A stretch of 64,000 nucleotides of DNA from Rhodococcus triatomae BKS 15-14 (lineage in GTDB: Bacteria > Actinomycetota > Actinomycetes > Mycobacteriales > Mycobacteriaceae): NCBI GenBank assembly GCA_000341795.1, contig AODO01000032.1, forward strand, positions 1-64,000. Reading direction: 5' to 3'. Below, piece after piece: positions 1,469 to 25,556 of this stretch. The translations under genes were made by a program, and so were the position numbers. The notes below the pieces were generated by a model, which did not search any database, had not been told where the DNA came from, and saw nothing but the letters and a program-made list of their open reading frames with translations. How positions within the stretch are numbered: position 1 is the first letter of the stretch; each line of letters starts with the position of its first letter.

Positions 1469-2554
1469 TCAGACGGCGCAGCCGACCGTCACCGGCTCCG
1501 GTTCGAGACGCACCCCGAACACGTCCTGGACCCCGGCCCGCACCTCCCGCGCGAGTGCCAGCACATCTCCCGCGACCGCGGAACCGCGGTTCGTCAACGC
1601 CAGCGTGTGCTTCGTCGACAACCGGGCCGCCGACCCCGGACCGGGGTGGCCCTTCGCGAATCCCGCACGCTCGATCAGCCAGCCCGCCGACAGCTTCGTG
1701 CCGCCGTCCGCGGGGAACCGGGGCACGGGAACATCGCCCACCCGCGCCGAGATCGCGGCCAGCACCTCGGCAAGCCGGTCGTCCGGCACCACCGGATTGG
1801 TGAAGAAGGAGCCCGCACTCCAGGTGTCGTGGTCGGTGTCGTCGAGCACCATGCCCTTGCCTGCGCGCAGCCGCAGGACCGTCTCGCGCACCTGCGCCGC
1901 GGGTCGCCGTTCCCCTTCCGCCGCGCCGAGCGCGGAGGCGAGCTCGCGATACCGCAGCGGCGCGCTCAGTCCGTCCTCGGTCGCGTCGAACTCGACGGCC
2001 AGGACGACGGCGGTGTCCGTGTGTTTGAGCGTGCTGGTGCGGTATCCGAGGCCGAGTTCGTCGGGCCGCACCCAGAGAACCTCACCGGACGCGCGATCGA
2101 GCAGCTGCACCCGGCGTAGCAGCGACGCGACCTCGACGCCGTACGCACCGACGTTCTGCACCGGGGTCGCACCTGCGGATCCCGGGATCCCCGACAGGCA
2201 TTCGAGGCCGCCGAGCCCGGCCGCCACGGACCGCGCGACCACCTCGTCCCAGACTGCACCCGCCTCCGCGGTGACGACCGAGCCGTCGATCCGGATCGTG
2301 TCGTTCGCGACCCGGACGACGACGGCGTCCACGCCGGCGTCGTCGACGAGCAGGTTGGAACCTCCCCCGAGGATCAGCAGCGGCACGTCAGCCGCATCGA
2401 GGGCGCGAACGACCGAGACGAGGGTGTCCGTGGAACGGCACGTCAGCAGGGCATGGGCCGGGCCCCCGACACGCAATGTCGTCAGCCGCGACATCGGCGC
2501 GTCCACGTCCAGTTCGGCGCCGTACTCGGCCGCCACGTCCTTCGCTACCCGCAC
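1469..2554 (-). CDS. murB: UDP-N-acetylenolpyruvoylglucosamine reductase MurB
   Basis: Reduces UDP-GlcNAc-enolpyruvate to UDP-MurNAc with NADPH and FAD in the cytoplasm, an early peptidoglycan step. The FAD-binding motif GGSNLLV, the segment [20 protein letters not shown] and the Ser-containing [10 protein letters not shown] are all visible. The frame stays open to an ATG at 2593, but that would overlap the divergent DUF2505 gene. GTG at 2554 (about 361 aa) is taken as the start, and GTG at 2536 is also possible. No good ribosome site precedes either, so the exact start is uncertain. The function is not in doubt. Confidence 0.93.
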
Positions 2555-11771: not shown

Positions 11772-11900
11772 GACGACGCTCCTCGCCGAGTGCCTGCGGG
11801 TGGGTGCGGACGGGGTCCGGGCCCACGCGAACACTTCAACAATGCGTCGTTCGAATACCCGTTGTCAACGGTATCTGTGACTTTGGTTCTCAGGCACTGG

Positions 11901-18891: not shown

Positions 18892-19001
18892 ATGTCTATC
18901 CCCGTGAGTCGAACCTCCGCAACGTCGGACGGTGGGGACGACAACGGGATTCCGCCGTTCCGGCCCCAGCGCGACCGGAGGCTGGCTAACATCGCGTGAA
19001 T

Positions 19002-19017
19002 TTGGACAAATGTCCAA
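19002..19017. promoter_or_regulatory. Palindromic operator candidate TTGGACA-AA-TGTCCAA
   Basis: A perfect 7-bp inverted repeat with a 2-bp spacer in the 151-bp intergenic region, 25 bp upstream of the endoglycoceramidase ATG and 110 bp upstream of adhC. Position and symmetry suggest a dimeric repressor site (TetR, MarR or GntR type). The regulator is unknown. Confidence 0.55.
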
Positions 19018-19042
19018 TCTCTCGACCCGGAGGAGTTCCGTG

Positions 19043-20518
19043 ATGCGAGTGAAGTCACTGCTGGCGAGAGTCGCGACACTCGGCGTACTGATGGCGATCC
19101 CCACCGTTCCCGCCGTCGCCGTCGCCGTTGCCGACGAGACACCGACACCCGCGGGCTCGGTTCGCATCGACGGCAGGTACTTCGTCGACGAGTTCGACCG
19201 CACGGTCCTGCTCCACGGCGTGAACACCGTCGACAAGGACGCCCCCTACCTCGAGGCCGGCGAGGCCCTCACCTCCGCGGACGCAGATCTGCTCGTCGGG
19301 CACGGATTCAACACCGTCCGCCTCGGGACCTCGTTCGACGCCCTGATGCCCGAACGCGGACGGATCGACGACGCCTACCTCGATCGGCTCGCCGCCGTCG
19401 TCGACACGCTCACCTCCCGCGGCATCCAGGTGCTCCTCGACAACCATCAGGACGGCCTGTCGACGGTGTGGGGCGGCAACGGCTTTCCCGCCTGGGCCAT
19501 CGAGGCACGACCCGGAGCGAACGAGCCGAATCCCGGATTTCCGCTCTACAACCTGATGCCGAGCATGAACCGGGGCTGGGACGAGGTGTGGAACAACACC
19601 CACGGCGCTCTCGACCACCTCGGCACCGCACTGGCCGCACTCGCCTCGAAGGTCGGCGCCACCCCGGGGGTCCTCGGCATCGAGGTGATGAACGAACCGT
19701 GGCCCGGATCCCCGTTCCCCACCTGTTTCCCGAACGGCTGCCCCGACTTCGACCGCACGTACCAGGCGGCGATGCAGAAGCTCACGGACGCGATCCGGGT
19801 GGCGAACCCGACGCTGCCGGTGTTCTGGGAACCGAACGTCACCTGGAACCAGCTGATGCCGTCGAACCTCGCGAATCCGCCGAGGACGCCCGCTCTCACC
19901 GACCCGAACATCGCCTTCGCGCCGCACGACTACTGCATCCCCAGTCAGCTCGCCATCTACCTCGGACTGCCCGAGGACCTGAGGGTCCTGTGCACCGTCA
20001 CCCAGGACAACACGTGGCGGAACATCGACGCGATCACCCAGCGTGCAGGCGTCCCCACCGTGGTCACCGAGTTCGGCGACGGTGACCCGACCGTGCTCGG
20101 CAACACCCTCCGACGCGCGGACGAACGCTTCGTCGGCTGGCAGTACTGGCACTTCGACGCCGACCGCGACACCGATCCGTTTCTCGGAGAGGTGGGTCGC
20201 CAACTGGTCCGCACCTACCCGCAGGCCACCGCAGGCACCCCTGGCACGCTGCAGTTCGACCCCGACGGCGGCGACTTCCGCTACACCTACACGGCCCGAG
20301 CGTCGGCGAAGCCGACCGAGATCTACGTCTCGGACCGGCACTACCCCGACGGGTACGTGACGACGGTGGACGGCGGGCGCCTCACCTCGGAACCCGGCGC
20401 ACGAATCGTCACGGTGGAGGCGGCACCGGGCGCACAGGTGACCGTCTCGATTCACGGACCCGGATCCGACGGCACGAACCTCCCGAACGCGACGTCGGGC
20501 GGCAGCAGCGGCTCCTGA
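19043..20518 (+). CDS. Secreted endoglycoceramidase (GH5)
   Basis: Cleaves the glycan-ceramide linkage of glycosphingolipids. The 491-aa protein has a signal peptide (about 1-30, basic then hydrophobic, AVAVADE at the cut). A GH5 (alpha/beta)8 domain follows, with the acid/base in EVMNEPW (Glu218) and the nucleophile in VVTEFGDG (Glu343). A C-terminal beta domain (about 395-470) and a Gly/Ser tail complete it. Features such as [14 protein letters not shown] and GWQYWHFD match Rhodococcus EGCase. ATG 19043 has AGGAG 7 nt upstream. The substrate is normally of eukaryotic origin, so it implies contact with animal tissue or its debris. Confidence 0.92.
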
Positions 20519-20668: not shown

Positions 20669-22954
20669 TCAGTCCGGCTGCGCCGCCCGTCTCCGCAAGC
20701 GCCGTGCGGCGGCCACCAGATTCCGCAGTGACGGTTCGAGCTGCCAGTAGTGGCGCGTCTTGAGGCCGCCGTCCGGATTCGCCCACAGCCGGTCGAGATC
20801 GACGGATTCGGCTGCCTTGGTGAGAAGTTCGTCGAACTCGTCGATGTCGGGTATTCGCGCCGAACGGGACTCGTACACGCCGGGTCCCACGCCGTGGGTG
20901 AGCTTGCGCTCGGTGATCGCGTCGAGCACCCAGTCGATGGACCGGGTCGCCACGATCGCCGTCACGTCGCAGTCGAGGCGCTCGATGGCGTCGACCACCT
21001 CGACGCGACTGGTGTACGACAGGTGCGTGTGGATCTGTGTGTCCGGCTTCGCCCCTCCCGTCGCCAACGTGAACGCGTCGACCGCCCACCCCAGGTACTC
21101 GATACGGCCACCGGCGCGCAGCGGCAGCAGCTCGCGGATCGCGGGTTCGTCGACCTGGATGATCGCGATTCCCGCCTTCTCGAGATCCGCGATCTCGTCG
21201 CGGATGGCGAGCGCCAGCTGGTCGGCGGTCTCGTGCAGCGGCTGGTCCTGACGCACGAACGACCGCGCCAGCATCGTCACCGGCCCGGTGAGCATGCCCT
21301 TGACCGGCTTGTCCGTGAGCGACTGCGCGTACCCGATCCACGAGGTCGTCATCGGCCCGCGGCGCCGCACGTCGCCGTACAGGACCGGCGGACGAACACA
21401 CCGGGAACCGTAGGCCTGCACCCAGCCCGCCCGGGTGGACGCGAATCCGTCCATCAGCTCGGCGAAGTACTGGATCATGTCGTTGCGTTCGTGCTCACCG
21501 TGCACGAGGACGTCGAGCCCGATGTCCTCCTGGAGGCGAACAGTGCGCTCGATCTCCTCCTGGACCCGCTCGACGTAGTCCGGGTACGGGATCCGGCCTT
21601 CGGCGAGTTCGTACCGCGCCTGCCGGATCTCGCCGGACTGCGGGAACGAACCGAGCGTCGTCGCGGGCACCAGCGGCAGGTTCAGGCGGGCCTGCTGTGC
21701 CGCCCGGCGCTCCTCGTACGGTGCCCGAACCCTGTCCTCGGGCCGGATCGCGTTGAGTCGCGCGCGGACCTCGTGCTTCTGCTTGAAATGCACCGACGTC
21801 GGCTTCTTACGCCAGCGCTCGGAGGGGCCCTCGGTCAGGGCCTTCGCCAACGACACGACCTCCCCGACCTTCTGCTTGGCGAAGGCCAGCCGGTCCGCGA
21901 CGTCACCGTCGAGGTCCCACTCGGCGAGCACGTCGTAGGGCACGTGCATCAGCGAACACGAGGTGGACACGACCAGGTCCGGAACGACGTCCTTGAGCTG
22001 CGACAGGTACGCGAGCGTGACGACGTTGTCCGCGCGCCAGACGTTGCGCCCGTTGACAACACCGGCGTAGAGGCGCTTGCGCTTGAGGCCGGGGATCCGG
22101 GCCAGCTCGTCGGCGGACATCCGGCCGTACACCAGGTCCAGGCCGATGGCCTCGACCTGGGTGGCGGCGAGGATCGGCAGGGCTTCGCCGAGGTTGCCGT
22201 ACGGTCCGGTGACGAGGATGCGTGGACGCAGCGGGGCGCGGGACAGCTTCCGGTACGCCCGGTCCAGCGCGACGAGCTCGTCCGCCGTGCGGTCCTGCGT
22301 GAACATCGGTTCGTCGAGCTGGATGCACGTCGCGCCCGCTTTCGCGAGCAGCTCGAACAGCGCCTCGTACTGTGGGAGCAGCCGGTCCAGGAGGTCGAGG
22401 GTCGACAAGCCCTCGGCCGCGTCGGGTCCCACCTTGGACAGCAGCAGCAACGAGACCGGCCCCAGTACCACCGGACGCAGTTCGATCCCCCGCGCCTCGG
22501 CGCGTTCGAATTCGTCCAACAGGGCGTCGGCATGCAGCGCGAAGGGCGTCCGCTCGTCCAGTTCGGGCTGGCGGTAGTAGTAGTTGCTGTCGATGTACCG
22601 CACCAGCTCGAGTGGCGGGAAGTCGGGCCGGCCGCGGGCCATCGTGAAATAGAAGTCGAGTTCGCCGAGCTCACCCTGGAGCGGCGCGAAACGAGACGGG
22701 ACCGCACCGAACAGCATCGCGTTGTCGAGGACGTGGTCGTAGTAGGAGAACGTGTTGCCCGGCACCTGGGTCAGACCCGTCGCGGCGAGCTCGCTCCACG
22801 TCTGCTCCTGAAGCTCTCGTGCCACCGCCACGAGTTCCGCCTGGGGGCACTGTCCGTGCCAGTACGCCTCGAGCGCCCGCTTCAGCTCACGCCGGGGCCC
22901 GATCCGCGGGTAACCGAGGATGCTTGAACCGTAACCAGCTGCGCCGCTCGACAT
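20669..22954 (-). CDS. metE: MetE-family methionine synthase homologue with degenerate zinc site
   Basis: A 761-aa two-barrel protein of full MetE length. Canonical MetE transfers methyl from methyl-THF-polyglutamate to homocysteine. Conserved pieces include LGYPRIGPRRELK, LGSFPQSGEIR, VHGEHERNDM, YGSRCVRPP, KGMLTGPVT, QVDEPAIRE and GPGVYESRS. The zinc ligands of E. coli MetE (His641, Cys643, Glu665, Cys726) align with His644, Ser646, Val668 and Gly729. Three of four are therefore lost (codons TCG and GGC confirmed for Ser646 and Gly729). Homocysteine thiolate activation by zinc is then doubtful. ATG 22954 has GAGGAAGGG upstream. There is no room for a cobalamin riboswitch before it. Confidence 0.85.
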   Translation of the reverse strand: MSSGAAGYGSSILGYPRIGPRRELKRALEAYWHGQCPQAELVAVARELQEQTWSELAATGLTQVPGNTFSYYDHVLDNAMLFGAVPSRFAPLQGELGELDFYFTMARGRPDFPPLELVRYIDSNYYYRQPELDERTPFALHADALLDEFERAEARGIELRPVVLGPVSLLLLSKVGPDAAEGLSTLDLLDRLLPQYEALFELLAKAGATCIQLDEPMFTQDRTADELVALDRAYRKLSRAPLRPRILVTGPYGNLGEALPILAATQVEAIGLDLVYGRMSADELARIPGLKRKRLYAGVVNGRNVWRADNVVTLAYLSQLKDVVPDLVVSTSCSLMHVPYDVLAEWDLDGDVADRLAFAKQKVGEVVSLAKALTEGPSERWRKKPTSVHFKQKHEVRARLNAIRPEDRVRAPYEERRAAQQARLNLPLVPATTLGSFPQSGEIRQARYELAEGRIPYPDYVERVQEEIERTVRLQEDIGLDVLVHGEHERNDMIQYFAELMDGFASTRAGWVQAYGSRCVRPPVLYGDVRRRGPMTTSWIGYAQSLTDKPVKGMLTGPVTMLARSFVRQDQPLHETADQLALAIRDEIADLEKAGIAIIQVDEPAIRELLPLRAGGRIEYLGWAVDAFTLATGGAKPDTQIHTHLSYTSRVEVVDAIERLDCDVTAIVATRSIDWVLDAITERKLTHGVGPGVYESRSARIPDIDEFDELLTKAAESVDLDRLWANPDGGLKTRHYWQLEPSLRNLVAAARRLRRRAAQPD

Positions 22955-23012: not shown

Positions 23013-23909
23013 TCAGCTTGCCTTCTTGGCGACACGGCCGTTGTCGGCGTACTCGTAGAAGCCGCGGCCGACCTTCTTGCCGACGAGACCGGCCTCGACC
23101 ATGCGCAGCAGCAGCGGCGGCGCCGAGTACAGGGGCTCCTTGAACTCCTCGTACATCGAGTCCGCGATCGACTTCACGGTGTCGAGACCGACGAGGTCGG
23201 TCAGTGCGAGCGGCCCCATCGGGTGCGCGAGACCGAGAACGGTCGCCTTGTCGATGTCCTCCTTGGTCGCGAAACCGGACTCGACCATGCGGATGGCGGA
23301 CAGCAGGTAGGGCACGAGCAGCGCGTTGACGACGAAGCCGGAGCGGTCGGCGGACCGCACGACCTGCTTGCCGAGTACCTCGCCGGCGAACTGCTCGGCG
23401 CGCTCGGTGACCGCGGCGCTCGTCTTGAGGGTGGTGACCAGCTCGACCAGGGGGAGCACGGGCACCGGGTTGAAGAAGTGCAGACCGATGACGCGCTCGG
23501 GACGGCTGGTGGTGATGCCGAGCTTCATGATCGGGATGGAGGAGGTGTTGGAGGCGAGAACCGCGTCGGGATCGGTGACGACCTGGTCCAGTTCGGCGAA
23601 GATCGCGCTCTTGATCTTCTCGTCCTCGACGACGGCCTCGACGACGAGCTGCCGGTCGGCGAAGTCGCCCAGGTCGGAGGTGAAACGGAGACGCCATGCG
23701 GCCTGCTCGCGTTCACGTTCGGTGATCTTTCCACTGCTCACGCCGCGGTCGAGCGAGCGCAGGATGCGTGCGCGTCCGGCGGCCGCGAGCTCCCGGGTCT
23801 GCTCGTACACCAGGACGTCGACATGCGAGCGAGCACACACCTCAGCGATTCCGGCGCCCATCTGGCCGGCACCGATCACGCCGACGCGCTGGATCTTCTC
23901 GCTGGTCAC
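23013..23909 (-). CDS. fadB2: 3-hydroxybutyryl-CoA dehydrogenase (FadB2-like)
   Basis: NAD(P)-dependent interconversion of 3-hydroxyacyl-CoA and acetoacyl-CoA in short-chain fatty-acid metabolism. The 298-aa product has the N-terminal Rossmann motif VGVIGAGQMGAGIAEVCA, the catalytic His in RVIGLHFFNPVPVLPLVE, NTSSIPI and the C-terminal helical domain with HPMGPLALTDLVGLDT. The start is a GTG at 23909 with GAGGAGC before it. It lies between isocitrate lyase and metE, and in M. tuberculosis it also adjoins icl (Rv0467-Rv0468). Twin hairpins separate it from isocitrate lyase. Confidence 0.93.
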   Translation of the reverse strand: MTSEKIQRVGVIGAGQMGAGIAEVCARSHVDVLVYEQTRELAAAGRARILRSLDRGVSSGKITEREREQAAWRLRFTSDLGDFADRQLVVEAVVEDEKIKSAIFAELDQVVTDPDAVLASNTSSIPIMKLGITTSRPERVIGLHFFNPVPVLPLVELVTTLKTSAAVTERAEQFAGEVLGKQVVRSADRSGFVVNALLVPYLLSAIRMVESGFATKEDIDKATVLGLAHPMGPLALTDLVGLDTVKSIADSMYEEFKEPLYSAPPLLLRMVEAGLVGKKVGRGFYEYADNGRVAKKAS

Positions 23910-24078: not shown

Positions 24079-25368
24079 CTAGTGGAACTGGCCCTCCTCG
24101 GTGGAGCCCTTCAGGGCAGCCGTCGAGGTGTTGGGGTCGACAGTGGTGGCGATGCTGTCGAAGTAGCCGGCGCCGACCTCACGCTGGTGCTTGATGGCGG
24201 TGAAGCCACGCTCCTCGGCGGCCTTGAACTCGCGCTCCTGCAGGTCGACGAAGGCGGTCATGCCGTTGCGGGCGTAGCCGTGGGCCAGGTCGAACATGCC
24301 GTAGTTGAGCGAGTGGAAGCCGGCGAGGGTGATGAACTGGAACTTGAAGCCCATCGCGCCGAGCTCACGCTGGAACTTCGCGATGGTCGCGTCGTCCAGG
24401 TGCGCCTTCCAGTTGAAGGACGGCGAGCAGTTGTAGGCCAGCAGCTGGTCCGGGAACTCGCTGCGGACGGACTCGGCGAACTTCTTCGCGACCTCGAGGT
24501 CCGGAACACCGGTCTCCATCCAGATGAGGTCGGAGTACGGGGCGTAGGCCTTGGCGCGAGCGATGCAGGGCTCGATGCCGTTCTTGACACCGTAGAAGCC
24601 CTCGGCGGTGCGGGTGCCGTCCAGGAACTCACGGTCGCGCTCGTCGACGTCGGAGGTCAGCAGGGTGGCGGCCTCGGCGTCGGTGCGGGCGATGACGACC
24701 GTCGGGACGTCGGCGACGTCGGCCGCGAGGCGAGCCGAGGTCAGGGTGCGGATGTGCTGCTGGGTCGGGATGAGCACCTTGCCACCGAGGTGGCCGCACT
24801 TCTTCTCCGAGGCGAGCTGGTCCTCCCAGTGCGAGCCGGCGACGCCGGCCGCGATCATGGCCTTCTGCAGCTCGTAGACGTTGAGGGCGCCACCGAAGCC
24901 GGCCTCACCGTCGGCGACGATCGGAGCGAGCCAGTTGTCGACGGAGGTGTCACCCTCGACCTTGGCGATCTCGTCGGCGCGCAGCAGCGCGTTGTTGATG
25001 CGGCGGACAACCTGCGGGACCGAGTTGGCCGGGTAGAGGCTCTGGTCCGGGTAGGTGTGGCCGGAGAGGTTCGCGTCACCGGCGACCTGCCAGCCGGAGA
25101 GGTAGATGGCCTTGAGGCCCGCGCGGACCTGCTGGACCGCCTGGTTGCCGGTGAGCGCACCGAGCGAGTTGATGTAGTCCTCGTTGTTGACGAGATCCCA
25201 GAGGATCTCCGAACCGCGACGGGCGAGGGTGGCCTCCTCGACAACGGTGCCCTGGAGCTTGACGACCTGCTCCGCGGTGTAGTTGCGCGTGATGCCCTTC
25301 CAGCGGGGGTTGGTGTCCCAATCCTGCTGGATCTGCTCTGCGGTCTTCGGGGTGCCGGTGGTCGACAT
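24079..25368 (-). CDS. aceA: Isocitrate lyase
   Basis: Splits isocitrate to glyoxylate and succinate, the first glyoxylate-shunt step needed for growth on acetate and fatty acids. The 429-aa product keeps the signature KKCGHL with catalytic Cys191, the same number as in M. tuberculosis ICL1, plus [10 protein letters not shown] and [12 protein letters not shown] 25368 is preferred over the adjacent TTG; GGAG lies about 6 nt upstream. A TTTGCAAA box about 170 bp upstream (25538-25547) matches the RamB motif, and ramB itself is 5.7 kb away in this window. Confidence 0.96.
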
Positions 25369-25537: not shown

Positions 25538-25556
25538 ATTTGCAAATCTTGCGAAG
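25538..25556. promoter_or_regulatory. ramB-box: RamB-type operator candidate upstream of aceA
   Basis: ATTTGCAAAT (25538-25547) is a perfect palindrome containing the TTTGCAAA core reported for corynebacterial RamB, followed by TTGCGAAG (25549-25556). It is about 170 bp upstream of the isocitrate lyase start, and TTGCGAAG recurs just before ramB. Confidence 0.6.

Follow-up and report, generated by a model that had tools for sequence, protein, structure and literature searches.

The zinc site is what makes methionine synthase work, and a conserved homologue of MetE that has lost most of this site raises the question of what such a protein does. The gene in question, denoted here metE' (zinc-less MetE-like gene), lies on the reverse strand at positions 20669..22954 of the window, the 64,000-nucleotide stretch of Rhodococcus triatomae BKS 15-14 DNA that was analyzed, and encodes a protein of 761 amino acids from an ATG start. 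It is convergent with a gene for a GH5-family glycoside hydrolase containing a Glyco_hydro_5_C domain (18932-20518, forward strand), which is retained beside metE' in the same genus and in one neighbouring genus.

A MetE-like protein without the zinc site

Both MetE domains, PF08267 and PF01717, were found in the window protein, which thus has the two-barrel architecture of MetE, and the match to Arabidopsis MetE (1u1h) extends over the full length (E = 1e-195). The AlphaFold2 model (pLDDT 87) superposes best on the Candida, Arabidopsis, Neurospora and Thermotoga MetE (Z 46-50), the top PDB match being MetE with Z 49.8, an rmsd of about 3 and more than 700 aligned residues. Sequence identity is 41-44% to the Candida, Arabidopsis and E. 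coli enzymes (EC 2.1.1.14) and about 50-57% to actinobacterial MetE. The NCBIfam MetE equivalog model NF003556 is matched well above the cut-off (946.8 bits vs 541); the score with the curated MetE model TIGR01371, 866.1 bits, falls below the cut-off of 929.95. Judged by its sequence, the protein is a member of the MetE fold family by architecture, yet fails the sequence-level tests that define MetE function.

At the columns of the E. coli zinc ligands H641, C643, E665 and C726, which were read against the Arabidopsis, Candida, Neurospora and E. coli K-12 MetE, the window protein carries His644, Ser646, Val668 and Gly729. The alignments thus confirm the claim of an earlier note, made from this DNA alone, that a full-length MetE homologue here lacks three of the four zinc ligands; if anything, that note understated the case. 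We collected 159 different full-length MetE-like sequences, which fall into two classes, 55 canonical (HCEC and His694 in every one) and 104 variant (H-x-[V/I]-[G/F] at the zinc columns in every one), with no intermediates among the 159. His641 is the sole ligand retained in the window protein and in all 104 orthologues. The Cys643 column varies freely among the variants (G, T, A, S and others), and the Val/Ile and Gly columns are fixed, so that the zinc site is permanently lost.

The changes extend beyond the zinc ligands, to positions that the earlier note had missed. The Asp-Ile-His of the canonical DIHSP motif is Glu-Ser-Arg in the variants: Asp692 is replaced by Glu in all 104, Ile693 by Ser in 100, and His694 by Arg in 101 (the other three have His, in two cases, or Lys, in one). 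Trp561 is replaced by Arg in 97 of the 104 variants and Pro485 by His in 81. The window protein itself has Arg at the columns of His694 (Arg697) and Trp561 (Arg564) and Cys at that of Trp205 (Cys210), and altogether, 27 of the 231 columns that are invariant in canonical MetE are altered in most variants. In the Thermotoga maritima MetE, Trp539 stacks on the pterin, and His672 is a candidate proton donor (PMC539065); with the numbering of the E. coli and T. maritima proteins matched by motif, these residues are Trp561 and His694, respectively.

Many residues involved in substrate binding are unaffected. S433, E484 and D599, which together with H641 form the pocket for the amino and carboxyl groups of homocysteine, are retained in 100% of the sequences of both classes, and the variants also keep Asp489 of the DMV loop, the arginines and other basic residues of the polyglutamate groove and, in 97 of 104 cases, Glu605. 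VHGEHERND, listed in the earlier note among the motifs that are kept, is not the canonical motif, which reads HGEPERND. Several residues are newly invariant, or nearly so, in the variants: Cys210 in the N-terminal barrel, which is the only new invariant cysteine, as well as Glu695, Arg697 (101/104), Trp675 and Gln738; His735 (94/104) and Asp703 (101/104) are also new in the C-terminal barrel. A scan of all columns for new conserved His, Cys, Asp or Glu revealed no apparent replacement metal cluster near the old ligands.

A single conserved clade under purifying selection

As this kind of loss is shared, without exception, by the 104 non-canonical sequences, it cannot be attributed to chance or sequencing error: metE' is a member of one conserved zinc-less clade, the existence of which the earlier note had proposed to check. 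Orthologues 86-90% identical to the window protein are present in all five congeners, and the clade spans some twenty related genera, including Rhodococcus, Nocardia, Smaragdicoccus, Hoyosella, Williamsia and Dietzia. In a tree of 85 sequences, constructed with a quick method and rooted by midpoint only, the variants form a single branch (SH-aLRT 100) with a stem of 0.74 changes per site, which adjoins the canonical MetE of Pseudonocardiaceae such as Kutzneria and Actinosynnema, the exact sister group being weakly supported. The canonical MetE of Rhodococcus rhodnii groups with the Pseudonocardiaceae rather than with other Rhodococcus, which suggests horizontal transfer of that gene.

The variant was detected in 89 of the 151 genomes sampled from the GTDB family of the host. 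Among 396 Actinomycetota genomes, the diagnostic NPDGGLK-type pattern was found in only three, all from that family, although the exact pattern is not shared by all variants of the family itself and could therefore miss remote relatives. In the open-licence full-text literature searched, neither the clade nor its link to isocitrate lyase was found to be described, which is weak evidence of novelty. Pairwise dN/dS among the variants is 0.02-0.15, resembling that of canonical metE and indicative of purifying selection, and none of the variants contains internal stops. A decaying or strain-specific gene, a reading raised in the earlier note for which the loss of the ligands alone would speak, is ruled out by these values together with the 104 different orthologues sharing the same loss and the fixed operon described below.

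Association with the glyoxylate operon

The genomic context of metE' differs from that of canonical metE. In the window, the gene 58 bp upstream on the same strand (23013..23909, reverse) encodes a FadB2-like 3-hydroxybutyryl-CoA dehydrogenase (HBDH; NF005875, 522 bits, cut-off 319), and further upstream lies aceA, the isocitrate lyase gene (24079..25368, reverse; NF011645, 767 bits, cut-off 562), the first gene of the proposed operon. Both aceA and the HBDH gene are located upstream on the same strand in 80 of the 80 variant loci for which 2.5 kb or more of upstream sequence was available, compared to 0 of the 55 canonical metE.

Upstream of aceA, at 25539..25546 (no strand assigned), the window contains its sole copy of TTTGCAAA, the core of the site of the acetate regulator RamB, which has been described as AA/GAACTTTGCAAA (PMC4448153). 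In the 651 kb of collected loci, TTTGCAAA occurs 22 times, and 19 of these copies, against an expectation of 0.07, lie in the 450 bp preceding aceA; the exact octamer is present upstream of aceA in 20 of 36 loci, the window included. A RamB/PrpR-type regulator with the ScfRs domain is encoded near many metE' loci, though not in the window. With metE' in the same orientation as aceA and downstream of a RamB-type site, the gene can be assigned, from sequence, to a glyoxylate/acetate (RamB-type) operon. The earlier note reported that the 58-bp gap holds no zinc-responsive box; this gap is intra-operon, and therefore regulation is to be sought upstream of aceA. A search of the window for a Zur-type box, a weak test, gave one match with 3 mismatches, at 11878, against 1.9 expected by chance. 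Cobalamin riboswitches were identified in all five Rhodococcus-type canonical metE loci checked and neither in the window nor in the metE' loci checked.

The arrangement resembles the icl1-fadB2 locus of mycobacteria and the RamB acetate operon, in which isocitrate lyase is followed by HBDH, with a ScfRs/RamB-type regulator nearby; unlike the metE' loci, loci of this type in genomes lacking metE' have another third gene. In the nine family members without metE' that were checked, aceA and the dehydrogenase persist and the following gene differs (in one of these, a cyclopropane/mycolic-acid-synthase-like gene). Thus, metE' is an accessory gene, which the operon can lack.

Methionine synthases in the host and its relatives

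The second check proposed in the earlier note, for metH or a canonical metE elsewhere in the genome, was positive for the former: R. triatomae BKS 15-14 encodes MetH along with a MesX-MesD pair, and lacks canonical metE. The pair resides on a separate segment (G000:C6:34750-38721), with MesX (PF08908) at 473-1462 and MesD at 1489-2517; the MesX/MesD system is described in PMC7857596. MesX-MesD is an oxygen-dependent, folate-independent methionine synthase system. The same genome additionally encodes a 340-aa PF01717 protein with a single barrel (G000:C30:53417-57376, 1471-2493, reverse strand), whose ligands, by eye, look like H-C-D-C; its gene immediately follows an mnmA-like tRNA thiolase gene.

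Across the 151 family genomes, the variant is present in 89, canonical metE in 85 and MetH in 142, with no correlation between the presence of the variant and that of canonical metE (p=0.24). The 89 variant genomes comprise 52 with both MetH and canonical metE, 35 with MetH only and 2 with canonical metE only; both genomes without MetH retain canonical metE, and the count of variant genomes lacking a zinc methionine synthase, zero, is only mildly informative given how common MetH is. A Dietzia-like genome (G008:C1:1747257-1750774, genus g4), in which the zinc-less variant is the sole full-length MetE found, has metH divided into two abutting reading frames; this is a MetH of two subunits or else a lesion, and provides a natural test of the capability of metE'.

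Published proteomic results

Another line of evidence comes from a proteomic study of the biodesulfurizing strain Rhodococcus qingshengii IGTS8 (PMC8557817), in which the level of a protein annotated as MetE (IGTS8_peg5907) in dibenzothiophene cultures exceeded that in sulfate cultures 190-273-fold; in the sulfur proteome, this protein ranks in the top ten by abundance. MetH escaped quantification under sulfur limitation, to which the authors attribute the induction of 'MetE', and 5-methyl-THF-triglutamate fell in the cultures rich in this protein (PMC8557817). The fall could mean that the protein uses this compound. The stated composition of IGTS8_peg5907 is 2 cysteines and 7 methionines, and that of MetH is 11 and 27 (PMC8557817). 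In R. qingshengii IEGM 1359 and R. erythropolis NBRC 15567, the variants have 2 cysteines and canonical MetE has 4, and MetH of IEGM 1359 has 11; the methionine counts in these strains are slightly above the published ones (variant 8-9 vs 7, MetH 30-31 vs 27). Given the cobalamin riboswitch on canonical metE in these genomes and the cyanocobalamin in the IGTS8 medium (PMC8557817), canonical MetE should be off. Because of this expectation and the count of 2 cysteines, the IGTS8 protein is very probably the zinc-less variant.

Dibenzothiophene was supplied in that study at 0.5 mM from a 100 mM stock in ethanol, with no ethanol mentioned for the sulfate cultures, and we calculate that the dibenzothiophene cultures contained 0.5% v/v, or about 86 mM, ethanol. 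Induction of the glyoxylate operon by ethanol would, hypothetically, explain the result. Sulfur source and ethanol are confounded in this design, and the study alone is therefore no proof of induction by C2 compounds.

Comparison with known protein families

The metE' protein shares with MetE the full two-barrel architecture, S433/E484/D599 and the polyglutamate groove, and differs from it in lacking three of the four zinc ligands, His694, Asp692 and Trp561, in being encoded in a glyoxylate operon, and in having no cobalamin riboswitch. With the core methionine synthases MesA-D (Price et al. 2021, PMC7857596), it shares the catalytic C-terminal barrel of the PF01717 family. However, MesA-D have no N-terminal barrel and mostly retain the zinc ligands; a single catalytic barrel with retained ligands is not what is found in the 761-aa protein, which has both barrels and has lost the ligands. 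A parallel for the loss itself is provided by the MesB-like proteins of Chloroflexales, in which the zinc positions read FSHG, YCDQ or YREQ (PMC7857596): the catalytic domain belongs to the same family, and the zinc site is not conserved. These are core proteins without the folate-binding N-terminal half, from another phylum and with another set of residues. We know of no link between them and isocitrate lyase. Uroporphyrinogen decarboxylase is a zinc-free relative in the fold superfamily, with metal-free chemistry. Its barrel matches the C-terminal barrel of the metE' protein with Z 22-24; at 11-14% identity and with a different pocket, the two have only the fold in common.

Possible functions of the metE' protein

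Taken as a whole, the interpretation in the earlier note is partly supported, the reading closest to ours being its suggestion that the enzyme uses another acceptor. We favor, with a probability of about 0.6, the reading that metE' is a neofunctionalised, zinc-thiolate-free paralogue of MetE made together with isocitrate lyase and HBDH during life on acetate, ethanol or fatty acids. We infer from the residue changes that the protein retains the ability to bind an amino acid, and perhaps a folyl-polyglutamate, and that zinc-thiolate methyl transfer is gone. It would then catalyze a different step, without zinc, with the invariant Glu695 and the near-invariant Arg697 replacing Asp692 and His694; because of this altered pair and the absence of zinc, the protein is most likely not a 5-methyl-THF:homocysteine methyltransferase. 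What the step might be can be proposed only tentatively, the odds being somewhat against it: an undescribed metal-free enzyme with the MetE double barrel, serving C2 and fatty-acid growth, whose ligands are an amino acid and possibly a folyl-polyglutamate and whose reaction, a new one of the one-carbon or C-C type, couples the glyoxylate shunt to amino-acid and one-carbon metabolism. Several observations point against the favored reading: the homocysteine residues, Asp489, Glu605 and the polyglutamate arginines are kept, as a methionine synthase would keep them; the MetE equivalog model is matched well above its cut-off; 5-methyl-THF-triglutamate fell in the IGTS8 cultures rich in the likely orthologue; the methionine count in the IGTS8 paper is below that of the variants; and the exact RamB core is limited to 20 of 36 loci.

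The same retained amino-acid pocket, Asp489, Glu605 and groove are what a genuine zinc-independent methionine synthase would show, that is, an enzyme with the substrates and product of MetE in which homocysteine is activated by Arg697 or another group and which is useful when zinc, cobalamin or sulfur is scarce. The great abundance of the likely IGTS8 orthologue under sulfur limitation, when MetH was not quantifiable, and the low sulfur content of a protein with 2 cysteines fit this reading as well. It was among those offered in the earlier note, and we consider it unlikely, given that Trp561 and His694 are gone in addition to the three ligands, that in 89 genomes the variant is never the sole methionine synthase (both MetH-less carriers have canonical metE), and that the operon is linked to glyoxylate rather than to methionine or zinc, with no cobalamin riboswitch and, by a weak test, no Zur-like box in the window beyond chance. 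Slightly less probable still is a pseudoenzyme, a non-catalytic relative of MetE that, by binding homocysteine, methionine or folate, would act in regulation or sequestration and coordinate C2 growth with one-carbon supply: the known catalytic groups are gone, the binding residues stay, and metE' is dispensable, being missing from several relatives with an intact aceA-HBDH pair. However, the new invariant or nearly invariant Glu695, Arg697, Trp675, Cys210 and Gln738 suggest a new active site rather than relaxation, and a place in the top ten of the sulfur proteome, if the IGTS8 protein is the same, would be unusual for a regulator. Finally, zinc or another metal could be held in the same pocket by other residues, for which the invariant His641 and the new His735 and Asp703 would be candidates; this is improbable, in that no new invariant His or Cys lies near the old ligands in the sequence, Val and Gly have become fixed in place of Glu and Cys, and the N-terminal barrel holds the only new invariant Cys.

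Implications

Database models (NF003556) label metE' as methionine synthase, and therefore the metabolic models of Rhodococcus, Nocardia, Dietzia and their relatives probably contain a wrong or unproven reaction. At least one published conclusion, the switch from MetH to MetE during biodesulfurization by R. qingshengii IGTS8, appears to be based on the variant and may be, in part, an effect of ethanol. If methionine is, after all, made by the metE' protein, these bacteria would provide a natural test of the zinc requirement in methionine synthesis; if the protein instead has a new activity, metE' would be a so far unrecognised part of the glyoxylate-shunt operon in bacteria that matter to biotechnology and medicine.
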